Of a stretch of 58,472 nt of DNA, positions 4,614 to 14,318 are shown piece by piece. Below the pieces are notes generated by a model. It did not search any database. It was not told where the DNA came from and was given only the letters and a program-made list of their open reading frames with translations. The DNA lies in the NCBI GenBank assembly GCA_900319465.1, contig ONOL01000013.1, forward strand, positions 1-58,472, read 5' to 3'. The position numbers were made by a program, and so were the translations under genes. Source of the stretch: an uncultured Eubacteriales bacterium (GTDB taxonomy: Bacteria; Bacillota; Clostridia; Oscillospirales; Oscillospiraceae). Position 1 is the stretch's first letter. Each line of letters opens with the position of its first letter.

Positions 4614-4661
4614 AAGAACTCCCCGGACGGAGAAGCTCGCTTCTCCGTCCGGGGAGTTCTT
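4614..4661. terminator. 22-bp perfect stem between convergent genes
   Basis: Perfect inverted repeat (AAGAACTCCCCGG...CCGGGGAGTTCTT) with a 4-nt CTCG loop. It ends inside the stop region of the thioesterase gene. On the minus strand it is followed by GGTTTTGCGTTTTG, so it probably terminates the ligase-ACP-thioesterase operon and may also serve the M32 gene. Confidence 0.65.
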
Positions 4662-5370
4662 AGGCATATTCCATCCGCATCCGAAACACCGGCTTTTCCC
4701 CCTCGCCCTGGAGGAAGAATACGCCGTCCTCCCCGGCCCAGGAGACCGTAAAGGTCTCGCCGAAGCGGGCCTCGCTCACGTATTCGGTCTGGATCTTCTT
4801 CAGCGCCCGTCCCGCCGCCGCGGCGGGGATGCAGTCCTCCGCAAGGTCAAAGTAGCGGGTGTTGTTCATGTGGCCGTTGATGTCCACATAGCTGTAAGGC
4901 ACCGTGAAGGGCCGGCTTTCCGTGCAGTCCATACGCTTCGGGGCGGAGGGCAGGGCGATCTCCTCGCCGGTGACGGTGCCCCCGATCTCCACGCCGAAGC
5001 GCTCGGGAAAGACCATCTTGCGCGTCTGCTGGTCCACGAGGCCCCAGAGGGCGCTGGCCGAGAGCAGGTGCTCCCCCGCCGCGGTCTCCAGCCGGTAAAA
5101 GCGGGGAAAGAGCAGGTGCATCGTGTGCCCGGGCCAGCTCTTGAGCACGATCTGTTCGTCATAGACCGGCATGCGCGCGATCTCGGCCGTCTGCAGCAGG
5201 AGCACCCAGAGTACGCCCTTGTCGAGCGTCTTGTCCCGCCCCATGCCGAGCTCCTCGGTGTGGCGGATGGAGGCCTCCTGCAGCAGCTTAAAGAGCTCCG
5301 AGGTGCGCAGGCGGCGGAACATATCCACGTCCTTGCTGCGCAGCAGCAGCTCCTCGCGGTAGACGCTCAT
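4660..5370 (-). CDS. Acyl-ACP thioesterase family protein
   Basis: 236 residues with the double hot-dog plan of acyl-ACP thioesterases (FatA/FatB-like, Pfam acyl-ACP TE), which free fatty acids from ACP. The N-terminal hot-dog contains ELFKLLQEASIRH; the second starts at PYSYVDINGHMNNTRY, matching the Asp-x-Asn-x-His-x-Asn motif of the plant enzymes. The ATG overlaps the stop of the ACP gene (ATGA), so translation is coupled. As last gene of a ligase-ACP-thioesterase operon it would release the product from the dedicated ACP. Chain length cannot be read from sequence. Confidence 0.85.
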   Translation of the reverse strand: MSVYREELLLRSKDVDMFRRLRTSELFKLLQEASIRHTEELGMGRDKTLDKGVLWVLLLQTAEIARMPVYDEQIVLKSWPGHTMHLLFPRFYRLETAAGEHLLSASALWGLVDQQTRKMVFPERFGVEIGGTVTGEEIALPSAPKRMDCTESRPFTVPYSYVDINGHMNNTRYFDLAEDCIPAAAAGRALKKIQTEYVSEARFGETFTVSWAGEDGVFFLQGEGEKPVFRMRMEYA

Positions 5371-5618
5371 CGCTTCTCGACCCGCTTGTACAGGGCGTCC
5401 ACCACGTCGCCGAGCGTCGAGAGCTTGCTCCACTGTCGTTCGGGGATGCGCACGTCGAACAGAGCCTCCAGCTTGCAGATGACGAGCACGAAGCCCATGG
5501 AGTCGATGGCGGTCTCGGTATTGATGACGCTTTCCTCCCGCAGGGCCTCCACGTCCATGTCGGGGAAGCAGTCATGGATCACTTTTTTGGTTTTTTCGAG
5601 AACTTCCTGTCTGGTCAT
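5367..5618 (-). CDS. Stand-alone acyl carrier protein
   Basis: 83 residues, four-helix ACP size. The phosphopantetheine attachment site is Ser40 in AIDSMGFV, a variant of the DSL motif (Asp-Ser-Met). It differs from the housekeeping AcpP in sequence and context: it sits between an AMP-forming ligase (5 bp upstream) and a thioesterase (overlapping), with no fab genes near. This is the arrangement of a dedicated carrier on which an externally supplied acyl group is loaded. A holo-ACP synthase must act from elsewhere in the genome. Confidence 0.9.
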   Translation of the reverse strand: MTRQEVLEKTKKVIHDCFPDMDVEALREESVINTETAIDSMGFVLVICKLEALFDVRIPERQWSKLSTLGDVVDALYKRVEKR

Positions 5619-5623
5619 TTCCT

Positions 5624-6958
5624 TTATCCCACTTTCTGCTGGAGCTCCCAGCGTTTTATTTTTCCCGTCGCCGTGCGCGGCAGGGGCTCGCCGCTGATCA
5701 GGATGCCCCCGAGCTGCTGTCCTCTCGGAAGCTCGCGCATGACGTCCTTCAGCTTCTCGCGCAGCGCCGCCTCCTCCGCCTGCCCGACGAACACGAGCAG
5801 CGGCCGGTCGTTTTTCAGCGTGACCGCAAGCTCCGTATGCCCCAGCGCCGACATCAGCCGCGCCTCATACTCCGGCAGGAAGATCTTCGTCCCGTCCGGC
5901 AGCACGAGCACGTCCTTCTTGCGCCCCGTGATATGGAGCTTCCCCTCCTCATCGAAGCGCCCGAGGTCGCCGGTGCGCAGCACGCCGTCCTTCAGCACCG
6001 CCCGCGTCGCGTCCGGCAGCTTGTAGTAGCCCTGCATCATGCAGGTCGGCGCCTCAATCAGGATCTCCCCGTCCTCCGCGAGGGTGATCGTATCGTCCGG
6101 GCAGACCTCCATCGCGTAGGGGTCGCCCTCCACGCTGATGGCGACGCCGGAGCTGGTCTCGGTCAGCCCGTAGCCGAAGCTGACGCGGATGCCCCGGGCG
6201 GCGGCCGCCTGCAGCAGCCGCGGCGGGCAGTCCCCCGCGCCGACGAGGACAAGCCCCAGCTCGGGATTGACGCAGCCCTGCCTGAGCAGGAAGCCCAGCA
6301 GCATCGGCACCACGGAAACCGCCGTGGGCCGGTAGAAATCACAGTCGTCCCCGTAATGCCGCGCGCCGCGGCCGAGGGCGACGCAGGCCCCGCAGCTCAG
6401 CCCCCACAGCAGCCCGCACACAAAGCCGAACACATGGCCCAGCGGCAGCAGGCACAGCAGCGTATCCTCCGGGGCGAGGGGGAGCTTTTCCGAGCCGTTG
6501 TACGCGCTCTGGCAGAGGGAGTGATCCGTCAGCACCACGGCCTTGGCCCGCTCCGTGGTGCCGGAGGTGAAGAACAGGAGTTTCCCCGCGCCGTCCTTAA
6601 CGCCGCCCATCAGGGAGATCGACAGCTCCTCGCAGAGCTCCCCGTCCCCCCACAGGAGGTCGACGTCCGTGTAGCGGATCAGGGTCTTGAGAAGCCCCTC
6701 GGGCGCCATCGCGTCCAGCATGACGATCTGCAGTCCCGCGAGGTTTGCCGCGAAGATCTCCGTCACGCAGGCAAGGCTCCCGTCGGAGAGGATGCCGACG
6801 CAGGTCCTGCCGCTCGCCTTCAGCTCCCGCGCGCGGCGGCTGACGTCCTCCCAGAGCCCGGAGAAGCTGCGCGTCTCGCGCCCGAAGCGCAGGGCGGGCG
6901 CGTCGGGCCGCTGCCGCGCCCAGTAAGAGAGCATTTGGCGAAAAGAATCAAATCGCAT
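5624..6958 (-). CDS. AMP-forming acyl ligase (acyl-ACP/acyl-CoA synthetase family)
   Basis: 444 residues, somewhat shorter than typical 500-550-residue adenylating enzymes. It activates a carboxylate as acyl-AMP and passes it to a thiol. Core motifs are present: A3 LLFFTSGTTERAKAV, A5 FGYGLTETS, A7 LRTGDLG, A8 ITGRKKDVLV and the C-terminal lysine motif RTATGKIKR. Start taken at 6958, where GGGGG lies about 7 nt upstream. Being followed by an ACP gene after 5 bp, the likely acceptor is that ACP. The substrate may be a free fatty acid, given the fatty-acid isomerase homologue on the opposite strand (inference). Confidence 0.88.
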   Translation of the reverse strand: MRFDSFRQMLSYWARQRPDAPALRFGRETRSFSGLWEDVSRRARELKASGRTCVGILSDGSLACVTEIFAANLAGLQIVMLDAMAPEGLLKTLIRYTDVDLLWGDGELCEELSISLMGGVKDGAGKLLFFTSGTTERAKAVVLTDHSLCQSAYNGSEKLPLAPEDTLLCLLPLGHVFGFVCGLLWGLSCGACVALGRGARHYGDDCDFYRPTAVSVVPMLLGFLLRQGCVNPELGLVLVGAGDCPPRLLQAAAARGIRVSFGYGLTETSSGVAISVEGDPYAMEVCPDDTITLAEDGEILIEAPTCMMQGYYKLPDATRAVLKDGVLRTGDLGRFDEEGKLHITGRKKDVLVLPDGTKIFLPEYEARLMSALGHTELAVTLKNDRPLLVFVGQAEEAALREKLKDVMRELPRGQQLGGILISGEPLPRTATGKIKRWELQQKVG

Positions 6959-6982
6959 AAGGTACCCCCTTCCCACTTGATC

Positions 6983-7101
6983 TGTTGTAAACAATATAAC
7001 ACACACGCCCGCCATTGAAAAGGGAGAACGGACGGATTTGAAAATATTTTGACATACGGGGAAAAATATATAGTGAAAAGCGGCGAGCTTTGTTGTAAAA
7101 T
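6983..7101. promoter_or_regulatory. Divergent promoter region of the fatty-acyl module
   Basis: Minus strand: TTTTCA (7016-7021), 17-bp spacer, TATATT (6993-6998) drives the ligase operon. An inverted repeat TTGTAAACAA (6985-6994) overlaps that -10, a repressor-like position. Plus strand: TTGACA at 7049-7054 is a good -35, but the -10 (TATAGT or TAGTGA) is poorly spaced. TGTTGTAAA occurs at 6983 and again at 7091, so one regulator could see both sides. Confidence 0.5.
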
Positions 7102-7151
7102 TGATTCAGCATAACGTGCACTCGAACAATCTATTTCTTGGAGGAATCACT

Positions 7152-8537
7152 ATGGACAAAAACATCCGTATCTGCATCATCGGCGGCGGCCCTGCGGGTC
7201 TCTCCGCCGGCATGTACCTCGAGCAGAAGGGCTACACCAACTACACGATCCTTGAGCGTCTGGACCGTGTCGGCGGCAAGTGCTGGTCCCCGTACTACAA
7301 CGGCAGACGCTACGAGATGGGCGCCATCATGGGCGTGCCCTCCTACTATGCCGTGGAAGACGTGGAGAAATTCTGCGGCATCACGCACGACGGCCCCAAG
7401 CTCAACCGCAACTACAAGAACGCCAGGGGCGAAGTCATCGAGCCCTTCGAGCCCAAGAAGAACATTCTCAAGATCCCCCGCCTGCTGAAGATGAAAAAGC
7501 AGATCAAGAAGCTCGGGGAGCTCCTGGAGACCAAGTACAAGGGCTACGACCTCAACGGCCACCGCGGCGTCGCCGAAGGCCGTTACGACGGCTTTGCCGT
7601 AACGCCCGGCCGCGAGAGAGTCCAGGGCGTCAACGAGAACCTGAAGGACCTCGCCCTGCCCTTCAAGGAGTTCTGCGCCAAGAACGGCGTGGAGCTGGTG
7701 CAGGACGTGTGGATCGGGCCCTACACCTCCTTCGGCTACGGCTACTTTGACGAGATCCCCGCCGGCTACGTCCTGAAGTATCTGGACTTCCAGACCACGA
7801 TGAACTTCGTCAAGGTCAACCTCTGGACCTGGAAGGAAGGCACGCAGTACATCTGGGAGCAGCTCAACGCCCATCTGAAGAACCCCGCCCGCCTCAACTC
7901 CGCCATCGAGAAGGTCGAGCGCAAGGACGGCAAGGTCTTCGTCACGGTCAACGGCGAGGTCGAAGAGTATGACAAGATCATCGTCACCGCGCCCCTGCAC
8001 ATCCCCGGCAAGCGCGCCGACGGCCAGAAGGGCATGGACGAGTACTTCGACGTGCGCGACGACGAGAAGGAGCTCTTCTCCAAGATCGACTACGAGCGCT
8101 ACGACGTGCAGGCCTTCCTGACCAAGCCCGAGGATCACCCGGAGATCTCCTACTATGTGTTTGACAACATGGTCAAGGAAAAGCTGGGCCATCTGATGGT
8201 CTACTACCGCCGCTGGAGGGATGAGATCGACCAGGTCATCACCACCTACGCGCTGCGCAAGCACAAGGACATGGAGGAGATCCCCTACGAGAAGTGCCGC
8301 CAGATGGTGCAGGACGACCTCAAGATCATGAAGAATCCCGCCAAGGAAGTCATCAACGAGTGGAGCGTGTACTACTTCCCCCATGTCTTCTCCGAGGACT
8401 ATGCCGCCGGCTGGTACGACAAGGTCGAAGCCATGCAGGACAAGTACGACACCTTCTATGCCGGCGAGGTCATGAGCTTCGGCGACATGGACGAGACCGC
8501 CGAGTACTCCCGCGAGCTGGTGGAGCGTTTCTTCTAA
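7152..8537 (+). CDS. FAD-dependent fatty acid double-bond isomerase homologue (PAI-like)
   Basis: 461 residues. The Rossmann FAD motif is IIGGGPAGLSAGMYLE, followed by ILERLDRVGGKC. From memory, many blocks match the Propionibacterium (Cutibacterium) acnes polyunsaturated fatty acid isomerase, which converts linoleate to trans-10,cis-12 conjugated linoleate: GRRYEMGAIMGVPSY, FGYGYFDEIPAGYVLKYLDF, LWTWKEGTQYIWEQLNA, LGHLMVYYRRW and FYAGEVMSFG. P. acnes PAI is 424 residues; this one carries extra segments around residues 95-165. TTGGAGG lies before the ATG. It is divergent from the ligase-ACP-thioesterase operon and upstream of two redox genes. Acting on free or protein-bound unsaturated acyl chains is inference. 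Confidence 0.85.
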   Translation: MDKNIRICIIGGGPAGLSAGMYLEQKGYTNYTILERLDRVGGKCWSPYYNGRRYEMGAIMGVPSYYAVEDVEKFCGITHDGPKLNRNYKNARGEVIEPFEPKKNILKIPRLLKMKKQIKKLGELLETKYKGYDLNGHRGVAEGRYDGFAVTPGRERVQGVNENLKDLALPFKEFCAKNGVELVQDVWIGPYTSFGYGYFDEIPAGYVLKYLDFQTTMNFVKVNLWTWKEGTQYIWEQLNAHLKNPARLNSAIEKVERKDGKVFVTVNGEVEEYDKIIVTAPLHIPGKRADGQKGMDEYFDVRDDEKELFSKIDYERYDVQAFLTKPEDHPEISYYVFDNMVKEKLGHLMVYYRRWRDEIDQVITTYALRKHKDMEEIPYEKCRQMVQDDLKIMKNPAKEVINEWSVYYFPHVFSEDYAAGWYDKVEAMQDKYDTFYAGEVMSFGDMDETAEYSRELVERFF

Positions 8538-8542
8538 ATTCA

Positions 8543-8674
8543 AAACGAAAGGCACGCCTTTCGTTTAGAGGGGCTTCAGCCCGATGCGCGCACTCGCTTG
8601 CGTGAGACGCTCGCACACGTTCGGGCTGGGAAGTGTTTTTTGCGAGGGACACGCCCCCGCAAAAAACACTTCCC
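8543..8674 (+). repeat. Two perfect hairpins in the isomerase-oxidoreductase gap
   Basis: An 11-bp stem AAACGAAAGGC/GCCTTTCGTTT (8543-8566) and a 17-bp stem GGGAAGTGTTTTTTGCG/CGCAAAAAACACTTCCC (8628-8674). Neither is followed by a T run on the plus strand. Together with the terminator at 8755 they fill the 260-bp gap; no gene is seen there. Confidence 0.6.
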
Positions 8675-8754
8675 ATGATTTTTCGCCCGCGGGTGAAAAA
8701 CTCTGCGAGGCTTCCCGATTGCTTGGCCTCTTTGAACCGCACGATTCTTTGAAT

Positions 8755-8784
8755 AGGGGGCAAGCCTTTGCCCCCTGTTTTTTG
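8755..8784 (+). terminator. Intrinsic terminator just before the FAD oxidoreductase gene
   Basis: AGGGGGCAA, 4-nt loop, TTGCCCCCT, then GTTTTTTG. It ends only 14 bp before the next start codon and its flank contains that gene's AAAGGAAG ribosome site, so it may attenuate transcription of the two redox genes relative to the isomerase gene. Confidence 0.7.
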
Positions 8785-8797
8785 AAAGGAAGATTTG

Positions 8798-10345
8798 ATG
8801 AAATTCTACAAAGACCATTACGACGTCGTCATCGTCGGCGGCGCGCTGGCCGGCATGTCCGCCTGTCTGCAGCTGCAGGCCTGGGGCGTCAAGGACATTC
8901 TGATCCTTGAAAAGCACAACATGCCCGGCGGCCTCGCCACCGACTTTGTGCGCAACGGCTTCGAGATCGAGGCGACGCTGCATGAGATGATGTCCATCGG
9001 CCAGCCCGGCAAGCGCCTCAAGGTCGGCAGGTTCTTCGACGATATGGGCGTCGACATCGACTGGCTGCCCGTGCCCGAATGTTATCGTGTGGCCCTGCCC
9101 AACTCCGGCATCGACAAGGTGCTGCACCCCGACTATGACGACAGCTATACGACCGTCGCCAGGGAGATCGACGAGGTCTGCCCCGGCACCTACGACAAGG
9201 TGCACGAGCTGATGCTCCTCTGCCGCCGCGTCTACGACAGCATGAACATCCTCTCCGTCACCCCGATGTCGAAGGTTCAGATGCTCCTCAAGCACCCCGA
9301 CTTCGTCAAGACCGTCGGTTATTCCGCGACCGAGGTCATCAACACCTTCCAGTTGCCCAAGAAGGCCGTGGAGATGCTGACGCCCTACTGGATCTACGTC
9401 GGCAACCGCATGGACGACCTGCCCTTTACGATCTACGCCTTCCTGATGGCCGACTACTTCACCGGCTCCTACGTCTGCCGCGGCTTCAGCCACGAGATGA
9501 GCATGAAGCTGCAGGCGAAGTGCGAGGAGAACGGCGCGCAGTACGAGTTCAACCAGGAGGTCGAGAAGATCCTCGTCCGGGACGGCAAGGTCTACGGCGT
9601 GCGCACCGCGCGCGGCGACGAGATCCACTGCGACTACGTGATCTCCGGCCCCTATCCCAACAAGGTCTACACCCAGATGATCGAGCCGCTGAGCGAGGTG
9701 CCCGTCGGCGCGATCCGGATGATCAACAACCGCAAGCTCTCCGTGGTGCCCGTGTCCGTCATCATGCTCATCGAGGGCACGCCCGAGGAAAACGGCATCA
9801 CCGACTACTCCACCTTCTCCGGCACCACGATGGACACCAACGAGATCTGGAGAAACTACGCCAACATCACCGAGCCCTACAATTACATCACCACCATCTG
9901 CCTCAACTACGCCAACCCCACCCTGCCCGAGGGCTATACCCAGCTTTCCATCACGGCGCTGGTGCCCTCCAAGCCCTTTGAGGACGTCAGGGAAGAGGAG
10001 TATCACGATCTCAAGCGCCGCCTTGCCAACGAGATGATCGAGGAGTGCCTCAAGATCACGAAGGTCGACTTCCGCAGCCGCATCACCGAGATCGAGGTCA
10101 CGACGCCCATGACCGTCTCCCACTATGTGGGCGCGTGGAAGGGCAACATCTACGGCTACCTGCACTCCATGGAGGACCACGCGGTGGCGAGACTGCAGAT
10201 GAAGGAGAAGGACCACTTCATCGAGGGGCTGGAATTCGCCGGCGCGCACGGCATGAGCGGTGACGGCATGGGCCCGCAGATCACCAACGGCCGCGCGGCC
10301 GCCAAGGGCGTGAAGGAAGATATGGAAAAGAAAGGGAGGCTGTGA
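8798..10345 (+). CDS. CrtI/RetSat-like FAD-dependent oxidoreductase
   Basis: 515 residues, the size of phytoene desaturase/retinol saturase-type flavoproteins. N-terminal dinucleotide site VVIVGGALAGMSACLQL (third position Ala instead of Gly), then LILEKHNMPGGLATDF; C-terminal FAD motif HGMSGDGMGPQITNGRAAAKG. Relatives saturate or desaturate C=C bonds in isoprenoids and other lipids. It lies between the PAI-like isomerase and, 2 bp downstream, an NAD(P)H/2Fe-2S reductase, so it may reduce the isomerised double bond with electrons from that partner (inference). It could instead be a desaturase. AAAGGAAG precedes the ATG. Confidence 0.8.
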   Translation: MKFYKDHYDVVIVGGALAGMSACLQLQAWGVKDILILEKHNMPGGLATDFVRNGFEIEATLHEMMSIGQPGKRLKVGRFFDDMGVDIDWLPVPECYRVALPNSGIDKVLHPDYDDSYTTVAREIDEVCPGTYDKVHELMLLCRRVYDSMNILSVTPMSKVQMLLKHPDFVKTVGYSATEVINTFQLPKKAVEMLTPYWIYVGNRMDDLPFTIYAFLMADYFTGSYVCRGFSHEMSMKLQAKCEENGAQYEFNQEVEKILVRDGKVYGVRTARGDEIHCDYVISGPYPNKVYTQMIEPLSEVPVGAIRMINNRKLSVVPVSVIMLIEGTPEENGITDYSTFSGTTMDTNEIWRNYANITEPYNYITTICLNYANPTLPEGYTQLSITALVPSKPFEDVREEEYHDLKRRLANEMIEECLKITKVDFRSRITEIEVTTPMTVSHYVGAWKGNIYGYLHSMEDHAVARLQMKEKDHFIEGLEFAGAHGMSGDGMGPQITNGRAAAKGVKEDMEKKGRL

Positions 10346-10347
10346 AC

Positions 10348-11538
10348 ATGAGCATCAAAGTCAGAGGATTCCTGCAGGACGTCGGCGGAGCCTCCCGCGT
10401 CACCAAGCTGAGAGAGGAGAATTTTGCCAAGGGTTCTCCGATCCCCGATCCGCATGACCCGATCCGGGAGCTGGCGGACAAGCTGCACCCCAAACACATG
10501 GTCTTCAAGGTCGCGGACATACGCGAGGCTTCCCCCTCCTCCCGCATCTTCCGTTTCGAATCGGCCGACGGGCACATCCCCGTGTTCCAGTCCGGCCAGT
10601 ACGTGAACTTCCGGCTGAAGATCGGCGAGAGCCTGCTCTCCCGCCCCTATACGATCTCCTCCGCCCCCTATGAGGCCAGAGGCGAGCATCCCTTCTTCGA
10701 GATCACCGTGCGCCGCAACGTCCCCTACCTCGTGCCCGACTACCTCTTCGAGAACGTCAAGGTCGGCGACACGCTCGAGGGCGCGCTGCCCTTCGGCTTC
10801 TTCTACTACGAGCCGATGCGCGACAGCCGCGAGCTCGTCGCGCTGGCCGGCGGCTCCGGCATCACCCCCTTCCACTCCATGGCCAAGGAAATCGCTTACG
10901 GCAAGCTCAAGGGCGTGAAGCTCACGATCCTCTACGGCTCGGTTAAGGCCAACGACATCGTGCTGAAAAACGAGCTCGACGCGATCGAAAAGGCCTGCCC
11001 CGACGTGAAGGTCGTGCACGTGCTGTCCGACGAGCCCGACTGGGACGGCGAGAAGGGCTTCCTCACCCGCGAGATCATCGAGAAGTATTCCACGCCCGGC
11101 TGCACCTATCTGTTCTGTGGCCCGCTGCCGATGTTCCGCTTTGTCAAGAAGGCGCTGGACGAGATGGGCGTGCCCGTGCGGCGTTTCCGCCACGATGTGG
11201 TGAACAACCCCGCCGACGTCTCCACCCTGCCCGGCTACCCCAAGGGCACCGAGAAAAAGACCTTCAGGATCACGGTCCTGCGCGGCATCCGCGAGGACGT
11301 GATCGAGGCGAAGGCCTCCGAGCCCGTGGCCGTGGCGCTCGAGCGCAGCGGCATCGCCATCGACACCCACTGCCGCAACGGCGAGTGCGGCTTCTGCCGC
11401 AGCCACCTGCTCGAGGGCGAGATCTTCGTCTCGCCCATCGGCGACGGCAGACGGCGCATGGACAAGGAGATGGGCTGGTTCCACGCCTGCTCCTCCTGGC
11501 CGCTGAGCGATCTGAAGATCAAGATCCCCATCATGTAA
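10348..11538 (+). CDS. Flavin/NAD(P)H reductase with C-terminal 2Fe-2S ferredoxin domain
   Basis: 396 residues. The order is a 50-residue N-terminal extension, an FAD domain (LSRPYTISSAP), an NAD(P) domain (LAGGSGITPFHSMA; CGPLPMF), then a plant-type ferredoxin domain with CRNGECGFC and a fourth Cys in FHACSSWP. It moves electrons from NAD(P)H through flavin and iron-sulfur to a partner. The partner is probably the CrtI-like protein encoded 2 bp upstream; GGGAGG within that gene's end serves this start, chosen at 10348. The N-terminal extension is not typical of phenol or benzoate dioxygenase reductases. The unit ends at a strong terminator. Confidence 0.88.
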   Translation: MSIKVRGFLQDVGGASRVTKLREENFAKGSPIPDPHDPIRELADKLHPKHMVFKVADIREASPSSRIFRFESADGHIPVFQSGQYVNFRLKIGESLLSRPYTISSAPYEARGEHPFFEITVRRNVPYLVPDYLFENVKVGDTLEGALPFGFFYYEPMRDSRELVALAGGSGITPFHSMAKEIAYGKLKGVKLTILYGSVKANDIVLKNELDAIEKACPDVKVVHVLSDEPDWDGEKGFLTREIIEKYSTPGCTYLFCGPLPMFRFVKKALDEMGVPVRRFRHDVVNNPADVSTLPGYPKGTEKKTFRITVLRGIREDVIEAKASEPVAVALERSGIAIDTHCRNGECGFCRSHLLEGEIFVSPIGDGRRRMDKEMGWFHACSSWPLSDLKIKIPIM

Positions 11539-12672: not shown

Positions 12673-12718
12673 AATACCAATCTTGAGCAAAGCAGATGCT
12701 TTGCTCAAGATTGGTATT
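12673..12718. repeat. 46-bp perfect palindrome at the 3' end of the SDR gene
   Basis: Arms of 22 bp (AATACCAATCTTGAGCAAAG plus CA and its complement) around a 2-bp centre. It includes the first base pairs of the SDR stop codon. No T run follows on the minus strand. A second weaker inverted repeat (CTCTGTG...CACAGAG) lies at about 12614-12640. Confidence 0.85.
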
Positions 12719-13364
12719 ACCAGATGAAATTCGATTTGAGCATCTCGCCGTTGTCGATCAGCAAATCCTCGCCGGTCATGGAGCGGTTCACCGCCGTGAG
12801 GAAATAGGCCAGCTCCGCGATCTCCTCCGCCTCGGCCCATTTGCCGAGCAGGGTCTCGTCCAGCACGGCGCGGTAGAGCTTCTCGTCCTCGAGAATGTGG
12901 CGGTTGGCCGGGGTGATGACGCCGCCGGGGGAAATGCTGTTGCAGGTCACGCCGCGCGCGGCGAGCGAGAGGGCGAGGTTTTTCATGTAGCCGACGACGC
13001 CGGCCTTGCTCGCCACATAGCGGGGAAACTCCGCGCCGTTGCGGGCGGAGGCCGAGGCGATGAACAGCACCGAGCGCAGAGACGCGCCGGGGAGGAACTG
13101 CTCGGTGAAACGGATCGTTCCGACGAGATTCACGTCGATGGCCTCGTCCTCGTCGAGGGTGCCGGCATTGTTGATGAGGATCTCGGCCTCCGGCAGCTCC
13201 GGCAGCTTCTCCTCCCGGATGTCGCAGACGATATGGCGGTAGGCGGGATGCCCGATCGTGCTCTCGCGCAGATCGAAGCCGAAGACCCGATGCCCCTCCC
13301 GCAGGAATTTTTCGGCGATGGCCCGGCCGATGCCCCTGGCCGTGCCGCTGACGACGACGTTCAT
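12717..13364 (-). CDS. Short-chain dehydrogenase/reductase
   Basis: 215 residues, slightly shorter than the usual 240-250. Cofactor site VVVSGTARGIGRAIAE, NNAG motif (ILINNAGTLDED), catalytic Ser in FIASASARNG and YVASK, C-terminal GEDLLIDNGE. Without an acidic residue after strand 2 that I can assign safely, NAD versus NADP preference is open; FDLRES suggests NAD(H). It follows the VUT transporter gene by 1 bp (TGAAATG), so the two are co-translated. Substrate unknown. Confidence 0.85.
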   Translation of the reverse strand: MNVVVSGTARGIGRAIAEKFLREGHRVFGFDLRESTIGHPAYRHIVCDIREEKLPELPEAEILINNAGTLDEDEAIDVNLVGTIRFTEQFLPGASLRSVLFIASASARNGAEFPRYVASKAGVVGYMKNLALSLAARGVTCNSISPGGVITPANRHILEDEKLYRAVLDETLLGKWAEAEEIAELAYFLTAVNRSMTGEDLLIDNGEMLKSNFIW

Positions 13365-13365
13365 T

Positions 13366-14073
13366 TCAGCCTCCCGCGCTCTCGCGCCCGTCCATGATGT
13401 TTTTCGCGATCCGATAGCCCAGCGGGGAAAAGACCACCTCGAACAGCAGCTCCATGCATGCGCCCGTGAGCGCGCAGGTGAAGCACTGCAGCAGCGTCCA
13501 GCCGAAGAAGAGCTTGCTCACAAGCAGCGCGAAGATCAGGTTGTCCGCGAACTGGGCGAGGAAGGTGGAGACGTAGGACTGCAGCGCGAAGGAGCCGAAG
13601 CCCTCCCGCCCCTTCACGAGCTTTCCGATGCCGTAGTGCAGAAAATTGTTCAGCACGGCGGAGCTGAGGAAGGCGACGGAGCTGCCGAGGATGACGTACC
13701 AGGTGCCGCCGAAGGTGTTGTCCAGCGCGGCATTGACGACGGCCTCGCTCCCGTCGACAAAGCTCTCGCCCCAGACGCCGGGGATGCGGCTTGCAAGAAA
13801 AAAAATCACCGCCATCAGCAGATTCAGTCCCAGTGCTGCGACGGAGAGGCTCGTGGCGGCGCGCGGGCCGTAGCAGTGCGTCAGCACGTCCATCGACAGG
13901 AAGGTCAGCCAGGAAAACAAAATCCCGCAGTCCAGCGCAAGCCAGTCCAGCCCGGTGTTGATGCTCTTGTTGGCCAGCAGATTCATCCCCACGACGGAGA
14001 GGATCAGCAGCGCGGCGATCAGCGGCGGCACGGTTTGCAAAAGACGGCGGAATTCCAGATATGTTTTTTTCAT
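13366..14073 (-). CDS. VUT/YhhQ family membrane transporter (queuosine-precursor type)
   Basis: 235 residues with about six transmembrane helices and the VUT_1 hallmarks (LLANKSI, FLSMDVLTHCYG, SQFADN-like FLAQFADNLIFALL). Family members import queuosine precursors such as preQ1 or preQ0 for tRNA modification. Start at 14073 chosen for AGGAGTC 8 nt upstream; an extension to 14172 has none. An A-rich tail AAAAAAAACAAGG precedes the start as in preQ1-I riboswitches, but the pseudoknot pairing is absent. Co-transcribed with the SDR gene. Substrate is by family inference. Confidence 0.8.
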   Translation of the reverse strand: MKKTYLEFRRLLQTVPPLIAALLILSVVGMNLLANKSINTGLDWLALDCGILFSWLTFLSMDVLTHCYGPRAATSLSVAALGLNLLMAVIFFLASRIPGVWGESFVDGSEAVVNAALDNTFGGTWYVILGSSVAFLSSAVLNNFLHYGIGKLVKGREGFGSFALQSYVSTFLAQFADNLIFALLVSKLFFGWTLLQCFTCALTGACMELLFEVVFSPLGYRIAKNIMDGRESAGG

Positions 14074-14318
14074 GGGAATACGACTCCTTGTTTTTTTTCG
14101 GCAACCGCACGCGCCGGCAGGTACGGGAAACGGATCGTGCGGGATCGCCATCAGGTGGTTGGCAAGAGACACCTGTTTTCAGTTTTTATCCCCCGGGGGG
14201 ACTCGGGAAGCCCGGCGCAGGCGCCGGGAGAGAGCAGGATCGCTGCTTGCTGCAGGACCATGCCGCCGGCCGGGGTTCCCGGCCGGCGGAAAGGCATTGG
14301 CTCTCAGGGGATCGGAAA

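Follow-up and report, generated by a model that had tools for sequence, protein, structure and literature searches.

A conserved six-gene locus of ruminant gut bacteria as a candidate module for trans-10 biohydrogenation of polyunsaturated fatty acids

The window analyzed here, a stretch of 58,472 nucleotides from an uncultured bacterium of the Oscillospiraceae, carries six intact genes between positions 4660 and 11538. They form two operons standing back to back, and coordinates, strands and open frames agree with those given in an earlier sequence-only reading. The features are as follows.

4660..5370, minus strand: acyl-ACP thioesterase, last of the three genes in the minus operon (start picked by hand)
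5367..5618, minus strand: divergent, probably dedicated acyl carrier protein (NCBIfam ACP models, D39-S40)
5624..6958, minus strand: AMP-binding ligase of the ANL superfamily, likely a fatty-acid:ACP ligase (PF00501)
6959..7151, no strand: divergent promoter region between the operons (promoter-like sites, gap kept in loci)
7152..8537, plus strand: PAI-type polyunsaturated fatty acid isomerase (FAD) (match to 2b9w)
8538..8797, plus strand: spacer rich in hairpins, separating the isomerase gene from the flavoprotein gene (folding energy against shuffles)
8798..10345, plus strand: CrtI-like flavoprotein, putative subunit of a C=C reductase (TIGR02734 below cut-off, fold match 4rep)
10342..11538, plus strand: NAD(P)H:flavin/[2Fe-2S] reductase, putative electron source for the flavoprotein (PF00970, PF00175, PF00111)

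In the minus operon the thioesterase and carrier genes overlap by 4 bp and the carrier and ligase genes are 5 bp apart, while the flavoprotein and reductase genes of the plus operon overlap by 4 bp. The ligase and isomerase starts are separated by 193 bp, and positions 6900-7200 contain four promoter-like sites against a mean of 0.4 in shuffled sequences. For comparison, the best 80 of 442 named PAI loci were used, chosen by PAI score; the ligase-isomerase gap had a median of 188 bp in 75 of these best 80. A shared operator was sought in the k-mers of 72 intergenic regions, but the words found were mostly promoter- and ribosome-site-like and none was recognized, so that no operator is claimed. 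The spacer at 8538-8797 has a minimum free energy of -122.8 kcal/mol (z -7.66 against 200 shuffles); the corresponding gap in relatives ranges from 18 to 720 bp, with a median of 66 bp (78 loci among the best 80 of 442).

Residues 2-138 and 164-461 of the isomerase match the solved structure 2b9w (E 2.8e-138), a homology over nearly the full length. This structure is labeled 'putative aminooxidase' in the database, and we take it to be the PAI of Cutibacterium acnes. PAI is described as converting linoleate to trans-10,cis-12-CLA (PMC2885616), and homology strongly suggests the same chemistry for the window enzyme. Its residues R86, F194 and F219, mapped by hand on the alignment with 2b9w, are the equivalents of PAI Arg88, Phe168 and Phe193, which presumably form the carboxylate and substrate gate. 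They are kept in 80 of the 80 named relatives (best 80 of 442); the gate Arg is absent from a more distant relative, L053. The substrate of C. acnes PAI is the free acid, and this conservation favors a free acid, rather than an acyl-ACP, as the probable substrate of the window isomerase. The sequence-only reading had proposed activation, isomerization and reduction in this order. Isomerization followed by reduction fits the enzyme families, but since a free acid is favored, activation before isomerization is probably the wrong order. It also follows from a free-acid substrate that the carrier, ligase and thioesterase would have no obvious role at the isomerization step.

The flavoprotein scores 90.8 bits with the curated crtI_fam model TIGR02734 (cut-off 238.1) and is thus related to this family while falling short of membership. 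Its AlphaFold model (pLDDT 81.5, weak stretches mainly at 440-451 and 462-471) resembles carotenoid desaturases in fold, with 4rep as best PDB match (TM 0.77/0.80, rmsd 4.2). The product of the following gene exceeds the cut-offs of PF00970, PF00175 and PF00111, as an FNR-type reductase with a plant-type ferredoxin domain, and misses the curated BenC cut-off (126.5 versus 430). Of 11 distant flavoprotein copies, in nine regions selected by hand and not at random (eight from genus matches, one from the order-wide search), 10 are immediately followed by a reductase homologue. The identities of the two proteins to the window copies are correlated (rho 0.87, n=67). Retinol saturase indicates that CrtI-like proteins are able to saturate C=C bonds, and homology supports, with moderate confidence, a two-component C=C reductase made of flavoprotein and reductase. 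As the pair also stands beside different genes elsewhere in the genus, it may give access to a whole family of anaerobic C=C reductases.

The ligase reaches 124 bits with PF00501 and its T131-SGTT135, G262-YGLTE267, D331 and K433 are invariant in 28/28 aligned sequences, as in ANL acyl ligases; TSGTT, GYGLTE and K433 are presumably the ANL catalytic motifs. It lies below the cut-offs for o-succinylbenzoate--CoA ligases (PRK03640.1, 134.8 versus 556 bits; menE, 130.7 versus 330.15 bits). Because a carrier gene adjoins the ligase gene, the enzyme likely charges ACP rather than CoA. The carrier itself scores 44.3 bits with the best NCBIfam ACP model, under the curated cut-off of 66, and has no Pfam match at E<=0.001. 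Its D39-S40 pair, which we take to be the Asp-Ser phosphopantetheine attachment motif, is invariant in 16/16 aligned rows. Two further PF00550 carriers are encoded on other contigs of the genome. The thioesterase belongs to PF01643 (64.4 bits, cut-off 23.7) and PF20791 (38.6 bits, cut-off 21), its profile matches the solved acyl-ACP thioesterases 2own, 2ess and 4gak, and D164, N166 and H168 are invariant in 15/15 aligned relatives. Rows of these three alignments were picked from the best 80 of 442 loci, and the significance given to the motif residues is our assumption. At G000:C17, a second copy adjoins a PF01643 gene. The families assigned in the sequence-only reading hold for the thioesterase (PF01643/PF20791), ligase (PF00501), isomerase (2b9w), flavoprotein (fold of 4rep) and reductase (PF00175/PF00970/PF00111).

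The trio of carrier, ligase and thioesterase is characteristic of biosynthetic clusters, and the nearest solved structure of the flavoprotein is a carotene desaturase. The module could then be biosynthetic, the flavoprotein desaturating an ACP-bound chain and PAI conjugating it to yield a polyene lipid. A dedicated NAD(P)H reductase, however, would point to electron supply and not removal. Moreover, no further recurring gene was recognized by eye in the first 60 ORF clusters around the best 80 of 442 loci, save an oxidoreductase and HypA/HypB-like genes. A biosynthetic role is therefore judged very unlikely. The oxidoreductase, a FAD/4Fe-4S protein of about 940 aa, is found near 30/80 loci (26 plus 4 cut copies; best 80 of 442). 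It was rejected as a module member, as many genomes of the genus, both those that have PAI and those that do not, contain frames of similar length, judged by length and weak matches to the PAI N-terminus only.

Across 295 genomes of the order, the isomerase, the ligase and the CrtI-like flavoprotein are confined to one identical set of four (4 of 149 genera), at E-value limits set by hand to exclude paralogues (PAI 1e-20, ligase 1e-70, CrtI-like 1e-120); in one of the four, the flavoprotein pair is unlinked, on another contig. An order relative, G273 (3 contigs, 99% complete), carries the full set of six and is conceivably a cultured strain. Among 37 genomes of the genus, 22 have both PAI and ligase, one PAI only, none ligase only and 14 neither (Fisher P 2.5e-9, kinship uncorrected). 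The ligase was never found without PAI, either in these 37 genomes (E<=1e-40) or in the 295 of the order (E<=1e-70), so that the idea of the ligase set as a generic gut module found no support. All six genes stand in one order and orientation at 59/80 loci (best 80 of 442), and 18 of the 21 loci with fewer genes are cut by contig ends, as judged from coordinates. In the same best 80 of 442, the ligase is present in 79 genomes and at the PAI locus in 75. Four of the other five have it elsewhere with carrier and thioesterase adjoining; in the fifth (L121) the contig begins 168 bp before PAI.

The co-occurrence of the two operons in other genomes, which the sequence-only reading had proposed to look for, is thus borne out in the 37 genus genomes, the 295 order genomes and the best 80 of 442 loci. 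Given the co-occurrence, the 59/80 arrangement and the presence of the ligase in 79/80 genomes, the six genes form one unit. The other possibility raised by that reading, that the operons act on different substrates and have only a promoter region in common, is thereby weakened and unlikely. The loose coupling of identities across the operons would agree with two unrelated operons sharing a promoter region by chance, but the identical occurrence in 4/295 genomes and the single arrangement at 59/80 loci (best 80 of 442) leave such a coincidence hardly any credibility. The arrangement stays while the partner proteins diverge to 38-49% identity, with PAI at 85-91% in the same loci (best 80 of 442). 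Horizontal spread of PAI was considered and rejected, since in a list chosen by PAI score this contrast is not evidence of transfer. In a sample of the phylum, PAI was detected at E<=1e-50 in 1/398 genomes, the window's own, and a plasmid search gave a single match (27.7%).

The genus has CrtI-like genes of 27-36% identity at many further positions, which implies several substrates for the family. PAI alone might therefore make the useful change, ending in the less harmful CLA, with the flavoprotein pair reducing or desaturating some other compound. Two genus genomes, G020 and G022 (72% and 79% complete), fit this explanation, having a close CrtI-like gene with PAI undetected. On the other hand, PAI is followed by a codirectional CrtI-like gene in 79/80 loci (best 80 of 442), and across the 295 order genomes CrtI-like matches at E<=1e-120 occur only where PAI is present. 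An independent role of the pair is thus regarded as quite improbable.

Cattle, sheep, goats and deer all harbor uncultured bacteria with the module, and record titles place it in ruminant gut bacteria. Among the best 80 of 442 loci, counted by hand, a ruminant host is named in 35 titles, a further 34 bear RUG names, which we take to indicate a ruminant gut origin, and 11 are undetermined; 3/80 are titled Coriobacteriaceae or Coriobacteriales. To judge from the titles, most records are draft MAGs. Milk fat depression has been linked to ruminal trans-10 acids, whose producers in vivo are presented as unsettled (PMC9853040), so that the module makes an old question testable. The same source judges C. 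acnes unlikely to be the sole or predominant producer, treats the role of Megasphaera as disputed, and associates Olsenella positively with the trans-10 shift, citing earlier Coriobacteriaceae work likewise (PMC9853040). The ruminant hosts and the link to trans-10 biohydrogenation go beyond the sequence-only reading.

We propose, with a probability of about 0.55, that this unit of observed gene content, conservation and co-occurrence lets ruminant gut bacteria hydrogenate dietary C18 polyunsaturated acids by the trans-10 route, its chemistry being read from homology. PAI would take free linoleate and form trans-10,cis-12-CLA by shifting its cis-9 double bond. The FNR/[2Fe-2S] partner would pass electrons from NAD(P)H to the CrtI-like flavoprotein, which would reduce one double bond of the conjugated diene to trans-10 (or cis-12) 18:1. 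The ligase may load substrate or product onto the dedicated carrier, which would mask the toxic carboxyl group and keep the hydrophobic chain soluble without CoA, and the thioesterase would release the finished acid. All these activities and products are putative, and the ACP-bound intermediate and the step served by the carrier are the most conjectural. In Butyrivibrio fibrisolvens, PUFA toxicity is reported to require a free carboxyl group, and most acyl-CoA pools to fall by more than 96% under linoleate (PMC2836310), which provides a rationale for a non-CoA carrier. Several points count against the proposal: the draft-MAG titles of most records, the missed crtI_fam cut-off, the two genomes with a close CrtI-like gene and undetected PAI, the want of an obvious place for carrier, ligase and thioesterase in isomerization, and the waste of ATP by a ligase and a thioesterase alone. 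CrtI-family proteins are, in addition, often desaturases or isomerases.

The carrier could also lie outside the pathway. Free acids would then be the only substrates of isomerase and reductase. The ligase, its carrier and the thioesterase would answer these dietary acids in a way of their own, for example by sorting or recycling membrane acyl chains, and the two sets would stay linked because the arrival of fat requires both. This agrees with the presumed PAI gate residues, with the ligase set lying apart from PAI in L097, L111 and L089, and with identities tightly coupled within operons (rho 0.85-0.91 for thioesterase, carrier and ligase; 0.87 for flavoprotein and reductase) versus 0.55-0.63 across them. 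However, a ligase and a thioesterase acting on one carrier would cancel out unless a step lay between them, and the ligase is never seen without PAI in the genus and order genomes. Such a division of labor is rather unlikely in our view. If reduction does take place on the carrier protein, the cell would be detoxifying a harmful fatty acid in an unusual manner. Possible though doubtful is the wider claim of a first genetically defined trans-10 biohydrogenation system, with carrier-bound hydrogenation by a two-component CrtI-like reductase. Its carriers would be uncultured Oscillospiraceae, Lachnospiraceae, Mogibacterium and Coriobacteriales of ruminants, as a main source of milk-fat-depressing trans-10 acids. 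If it shifts and removes double bonds of linoleic acid as proposed, the module would be a candidate source of trans-10 fats lowering milk fat; it also offers marker genes for metagenomes and metatranscriptomes, names of likely carriers and six enzymes to assay.

With C. acnes PAI the window isomerase shares homology and the presumed gate residues; at this locus it is accompanied by five partner genes. A CLA reductase of Butyrivibrio fibrisolvens was reportedly studied by Hughes in 1982 and Fukuda in 2007. This cis-9,trans-11-octadecadienoate reductase presumably catalyzes the same type of reaction, in that it reduces a conjugated C18 diene of the rumen in an NAD-linked manner (PMC4478896), but acts in the trans-11 pathway, and is likened here by reaction and not by sequence. 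Zhang et al. 2023 had earlier described PAI homologues from rumen bacteria; they searched rumen MAGs by BLASTp for this isomerase family and list seven with PAI: Lachnospiraceae (2), Oscillospiraceae (1) and unclassified (4) (PMC10019597). As far as the available part of that paper goes, neighboring genes, reductase and carrier module are described only here. Its cow groups differed significantly at the gene level in another isomerase class, BBI, which counts against our proposal, and three MAGs with isomerase genes, of a class left unspecified here, correlated with milk trans-10,cis-12-18:2 (PMC10019597). The CLA-HY/DH/DC/ER system of Lactiplantibacillus plantarum is likewise a multi-enzyme conversion of linoleate in gut bacteria, but uses other enzymes, proceeds via hydroxy acids and, in the available text, names no carrier protein (PMC13365329). 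In the open-access literature, judged from less than whole texts, no description of the six-gene module was recognized. Finally, the flavoprotein has its fold and FAD domain in common with CrtI-type phytoene desaturases, carotenoid isomerases and retinol saturase, but scores under the crtI_fam cut-off and is paired with a dedicated reductase gene.

The region at 4660-11538 encodes six proteins in two divergent operons, the start codons of which lie 193 bp apart:

4660-5370, minus strand, acyl-ACP thioesterase (family search)
5367-5618, minus strand, carrier protein (family match below the curated cut-off)
5624-6958, minus strand, ligase (family search)
7152-8537, plus strand, PAI homologue (match to solved structure 2b9w)
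8798-10345, plus strand, CrtI-like flavoprotein (family match below the curated cut-off)
10342-11538, plus strand, FNR/[2Fe-2S] reductase (family search)

The two back-to-back operons described by the sequence-only reading were thus located in full, and each of the six family assignments was backed by family searches, the carrier protein (44.3 bits, ACP family cut-off 66) and the flavoprotein (90.8 bits, cut-off 238.1) scoring below the curated values. Structure 2b9w, labeled 'putative aminooxidase' in the database, is presumably that of the Cutibacterium acnes PAI. Because the source genome (a 2.0-Mb draft in 60 contigs, completeness 88.5%) holds two other PF00550 carriers and one other PF01643 thioesterase, the carrier and thioesterase of the module look, by family content, like additional, dedicated copies. 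In this genome, the spacer between the PAI and flavoprotein genes (8538-8797) is strongly structured (z -7.66) and contains an inverted repeat at 8628-8674; the pattern of one repeat arm, with at most three mismatches, had no second match within the window. This spacer could lower transcription of the flavoprotein/reductase pair.

A strong PAI match was present in 23 of the 37 genomes of the genus (the window's own counted); the ligase occurred in 22 genomes, every one of them with PAI. The sole genome with PAI and without ligase, G016, has its PAI in two pieces and holds a flavoprotein gene stretch of 46 residues, and no ligase set was found in the 17.5 kb read. A close-type flavoprotein (at least 80%) occurred in 20 of the 37, 18 of them with PAI; in G020 and G022 it was present and PAI was not detected. 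The five PAI genomes lacking it are G016 and four in which a contig end cuts PAI. The co-occurrence in other genomes that the sequence-only reading had proposed to check was recovered within the order: at hand-set limits, the searches for PAI, for the ligase and for the flavoprotein each hit the same four of 295 genomes (the window's, G107, G273 and G322). All six genes are arranged as in the window in G107 and G273, and G322 bears one PAI beside the ligase set and the flavoprotein/reductase pair on a separate contig. If the genes were independent, the chance of identical sets of three in 294 genomes (the window's left out) would be about 1 in 4 million, which is too strong a figure, given that G273 and G322 share a family and G107 belongs to the window's family. 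In the phylum draw, PAI was found in one of 398 genomes, the window's own. We consider it very probable (about 0.93) that the six genes form a single functional unit. G322 also carries a second PAI (contig C30, region L053), 65-66% identical, with a non-Arg residue at the Arg88 equivalent; it adjoins a 673-aa frame resembling, by eye, an AMP-binding enzyme, and no module genes were found near it in the 17.5 kb read.

A scan of the PAI alignment against 84,980 named genomes, one per species, gave 442 relatives. Among the best 80 of these 442, to which all counts in this paragraph refer, six of six genes were present at 59 loci. The reductase was missing at eight, carrier and thioesterase at six, the thioesterase alone at one, and flavoprotein and reductase at one, while five held PAI, flavoprotein and reductase only. 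The order and strand of the genes found were identical at all 80. By coordinates, contig ends truncate 18 of the 21 incomplete loci, the others being L089, L097 and L111. The ligase was absent at these three and at L113 and L121; a search of the five genomes found it elsewhere in four, adjoined each time by carrier and thioesterase (in L097 some 10 kb upstream, on what seems from its equal length to be the same contig), so that 79/80 genomes have the ligase. Titles include Oscillospiraceae/Ruminococcaceae, Lachnospiraceae and Mogibacterium (L125). A ruminant host is named in 35 (cattle, sheep, goat, yak, water buffalo, red deer, roe deer), 34 further relatives bear RUG names, which we take to mean rumen uncultured genomes, and 11 fall in neither group; ruminant hosts are shown for close relatives only, since the list favours the window's PAI type.

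Compared with their window counterparts over the best stretch (coverage of 80% or more), the proteins of the same best 80 of 442 loci showed identities of 85-91% for PAI (n=80), 49-96% for the flavoprotein (n=72), 49-95% for the reductase (n=67), 39-86% for the ligase (n=68), 39-94% for the carrier (n=68) and 38-87% for the thioesterase (n=67). Despite this wide spread, motif positions were invariant in the aligned rows. Identities covary inside each operon and more weakly between the two, as if subtypes of the module's two halves had been swapped. The flavoprotein and reductase form a pair outside the module too: in nine hand-picked regions, a reductase homologue lies directly downstream of 10 of 11 distant flavoprotein copies (27-33%). 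Locus L146 (G030:C32) carries, on a single strand, two CrtI-like flavoproteins, one FNR/[2Fe-2S] reductase and an 875-aa frame resembling, by eye, the ~940-aa oxidoreductase described below; this cluster is related to the reductase half of the module.

The window's PAI matches 2b9w across nearly its full length, and the residues hand-mapped on that alignment, presumably the carboxylate gate of the C. acnes PAI, are kept in 80/80 (best 80 of 442), which makes the free acid its likely substrate. The C. acnes enzyme converts linoleate to trans-10,cis-12-CLA (PMC2885616), and we hold with good confidence that the window enzyme does the same. The conjugated product would be the natural substrate of the flavoprotein, the gene of which, whole or cut, follows at 79/80 loci (best 80 of 442). 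The presence of an NAD(P)H/[2Fe-2S] partner speaks for a reduction, and flavoprotein and reductase probably act as a two-component C=C reductase of the PAI product, which would yield trans-10 18:1 or cis-12 18:1. The role of ligase, carrier and thioesterase is the least certain part of this scheme. According to passages of PMC2836310, PUFA toxicity to Butyrivibrio fibrisolvens requires a free carboxyl group, and most acyl-CoA pools fall by more than 96% under linoleate. Attached to a dedicated carrier, the acid would have its carboxyl group masked at no cost in CoA, and the thioesterase would release it once reduced; such a carrier-bound intermediate is conceivable, with the odds slightly against it.

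In the open-access literature searched, no description of the six-gene module was found. PAI homologues in rumen MAGs were described in 2023 (PMC10019597); the passages seen of that paper leave their neighboring genes unnamed. In the same passages, the significant gene-level difference concerned an isomerase class other than PAI, and three isomerase-bearing MAGs, of a class that may differ from PAI, correlate with trans-10,cis-12-18:2 in milk. For the fatty acid reductase of Butyrivibrio, a paper of 2015 noted that KEGG, COG, Pfam and further databases lacked it, even though a sequence had been reported (PMC4478896). According to PMC9853040, the bacteria causing the trans-10 shift are unsettled: Olsenella is associated with it, work cited there links Coriobacteriaceae, and the strongest marker was a single OTU from the [Eubacterium] coprostanoligenes group. 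Here, three module loci (L062, L079, L133; best 80 of 442) bear Coriobacteriaceae/Coriobacteriales titles. That the module is the main contributor to the shift in vivo seems less likely than not.

Genes for an SDR-type dehydrogenase and a VUT-like membrane protein (named by eye) lie at 12717-14172 of the window and near the module at L086 (15240-16669) and the Coriobacteriaceae-titled L062 (14463-15823), with 63-78% identity; none was found at E<=1e-10 in the other 78 loci of the best 80 of 442. A ~940-aa GltD-like FAD/4Fe-4S oxidoreductase, whose first Pfam match begins at about residue 320, is encoded near 30/80 loci (best 80 of 442; e.g. L052, 2196-5144 and 6-1781), often just 3' of the reductase gene or else at the thioesterase end of the module, and may be a further electron carrier of the module. 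Of the best 80 of 442 loci, 14 (e.g. L076, 4546-4887) have a HypA-like gene close to the module and 12 (e.g. L095, 3470-4141) a HypB/CobW-like gene; a Hyp-type gene is also present at L052 (1821-2171), and in several loci such genes adjoin the ~940-aa oxidoreductase.
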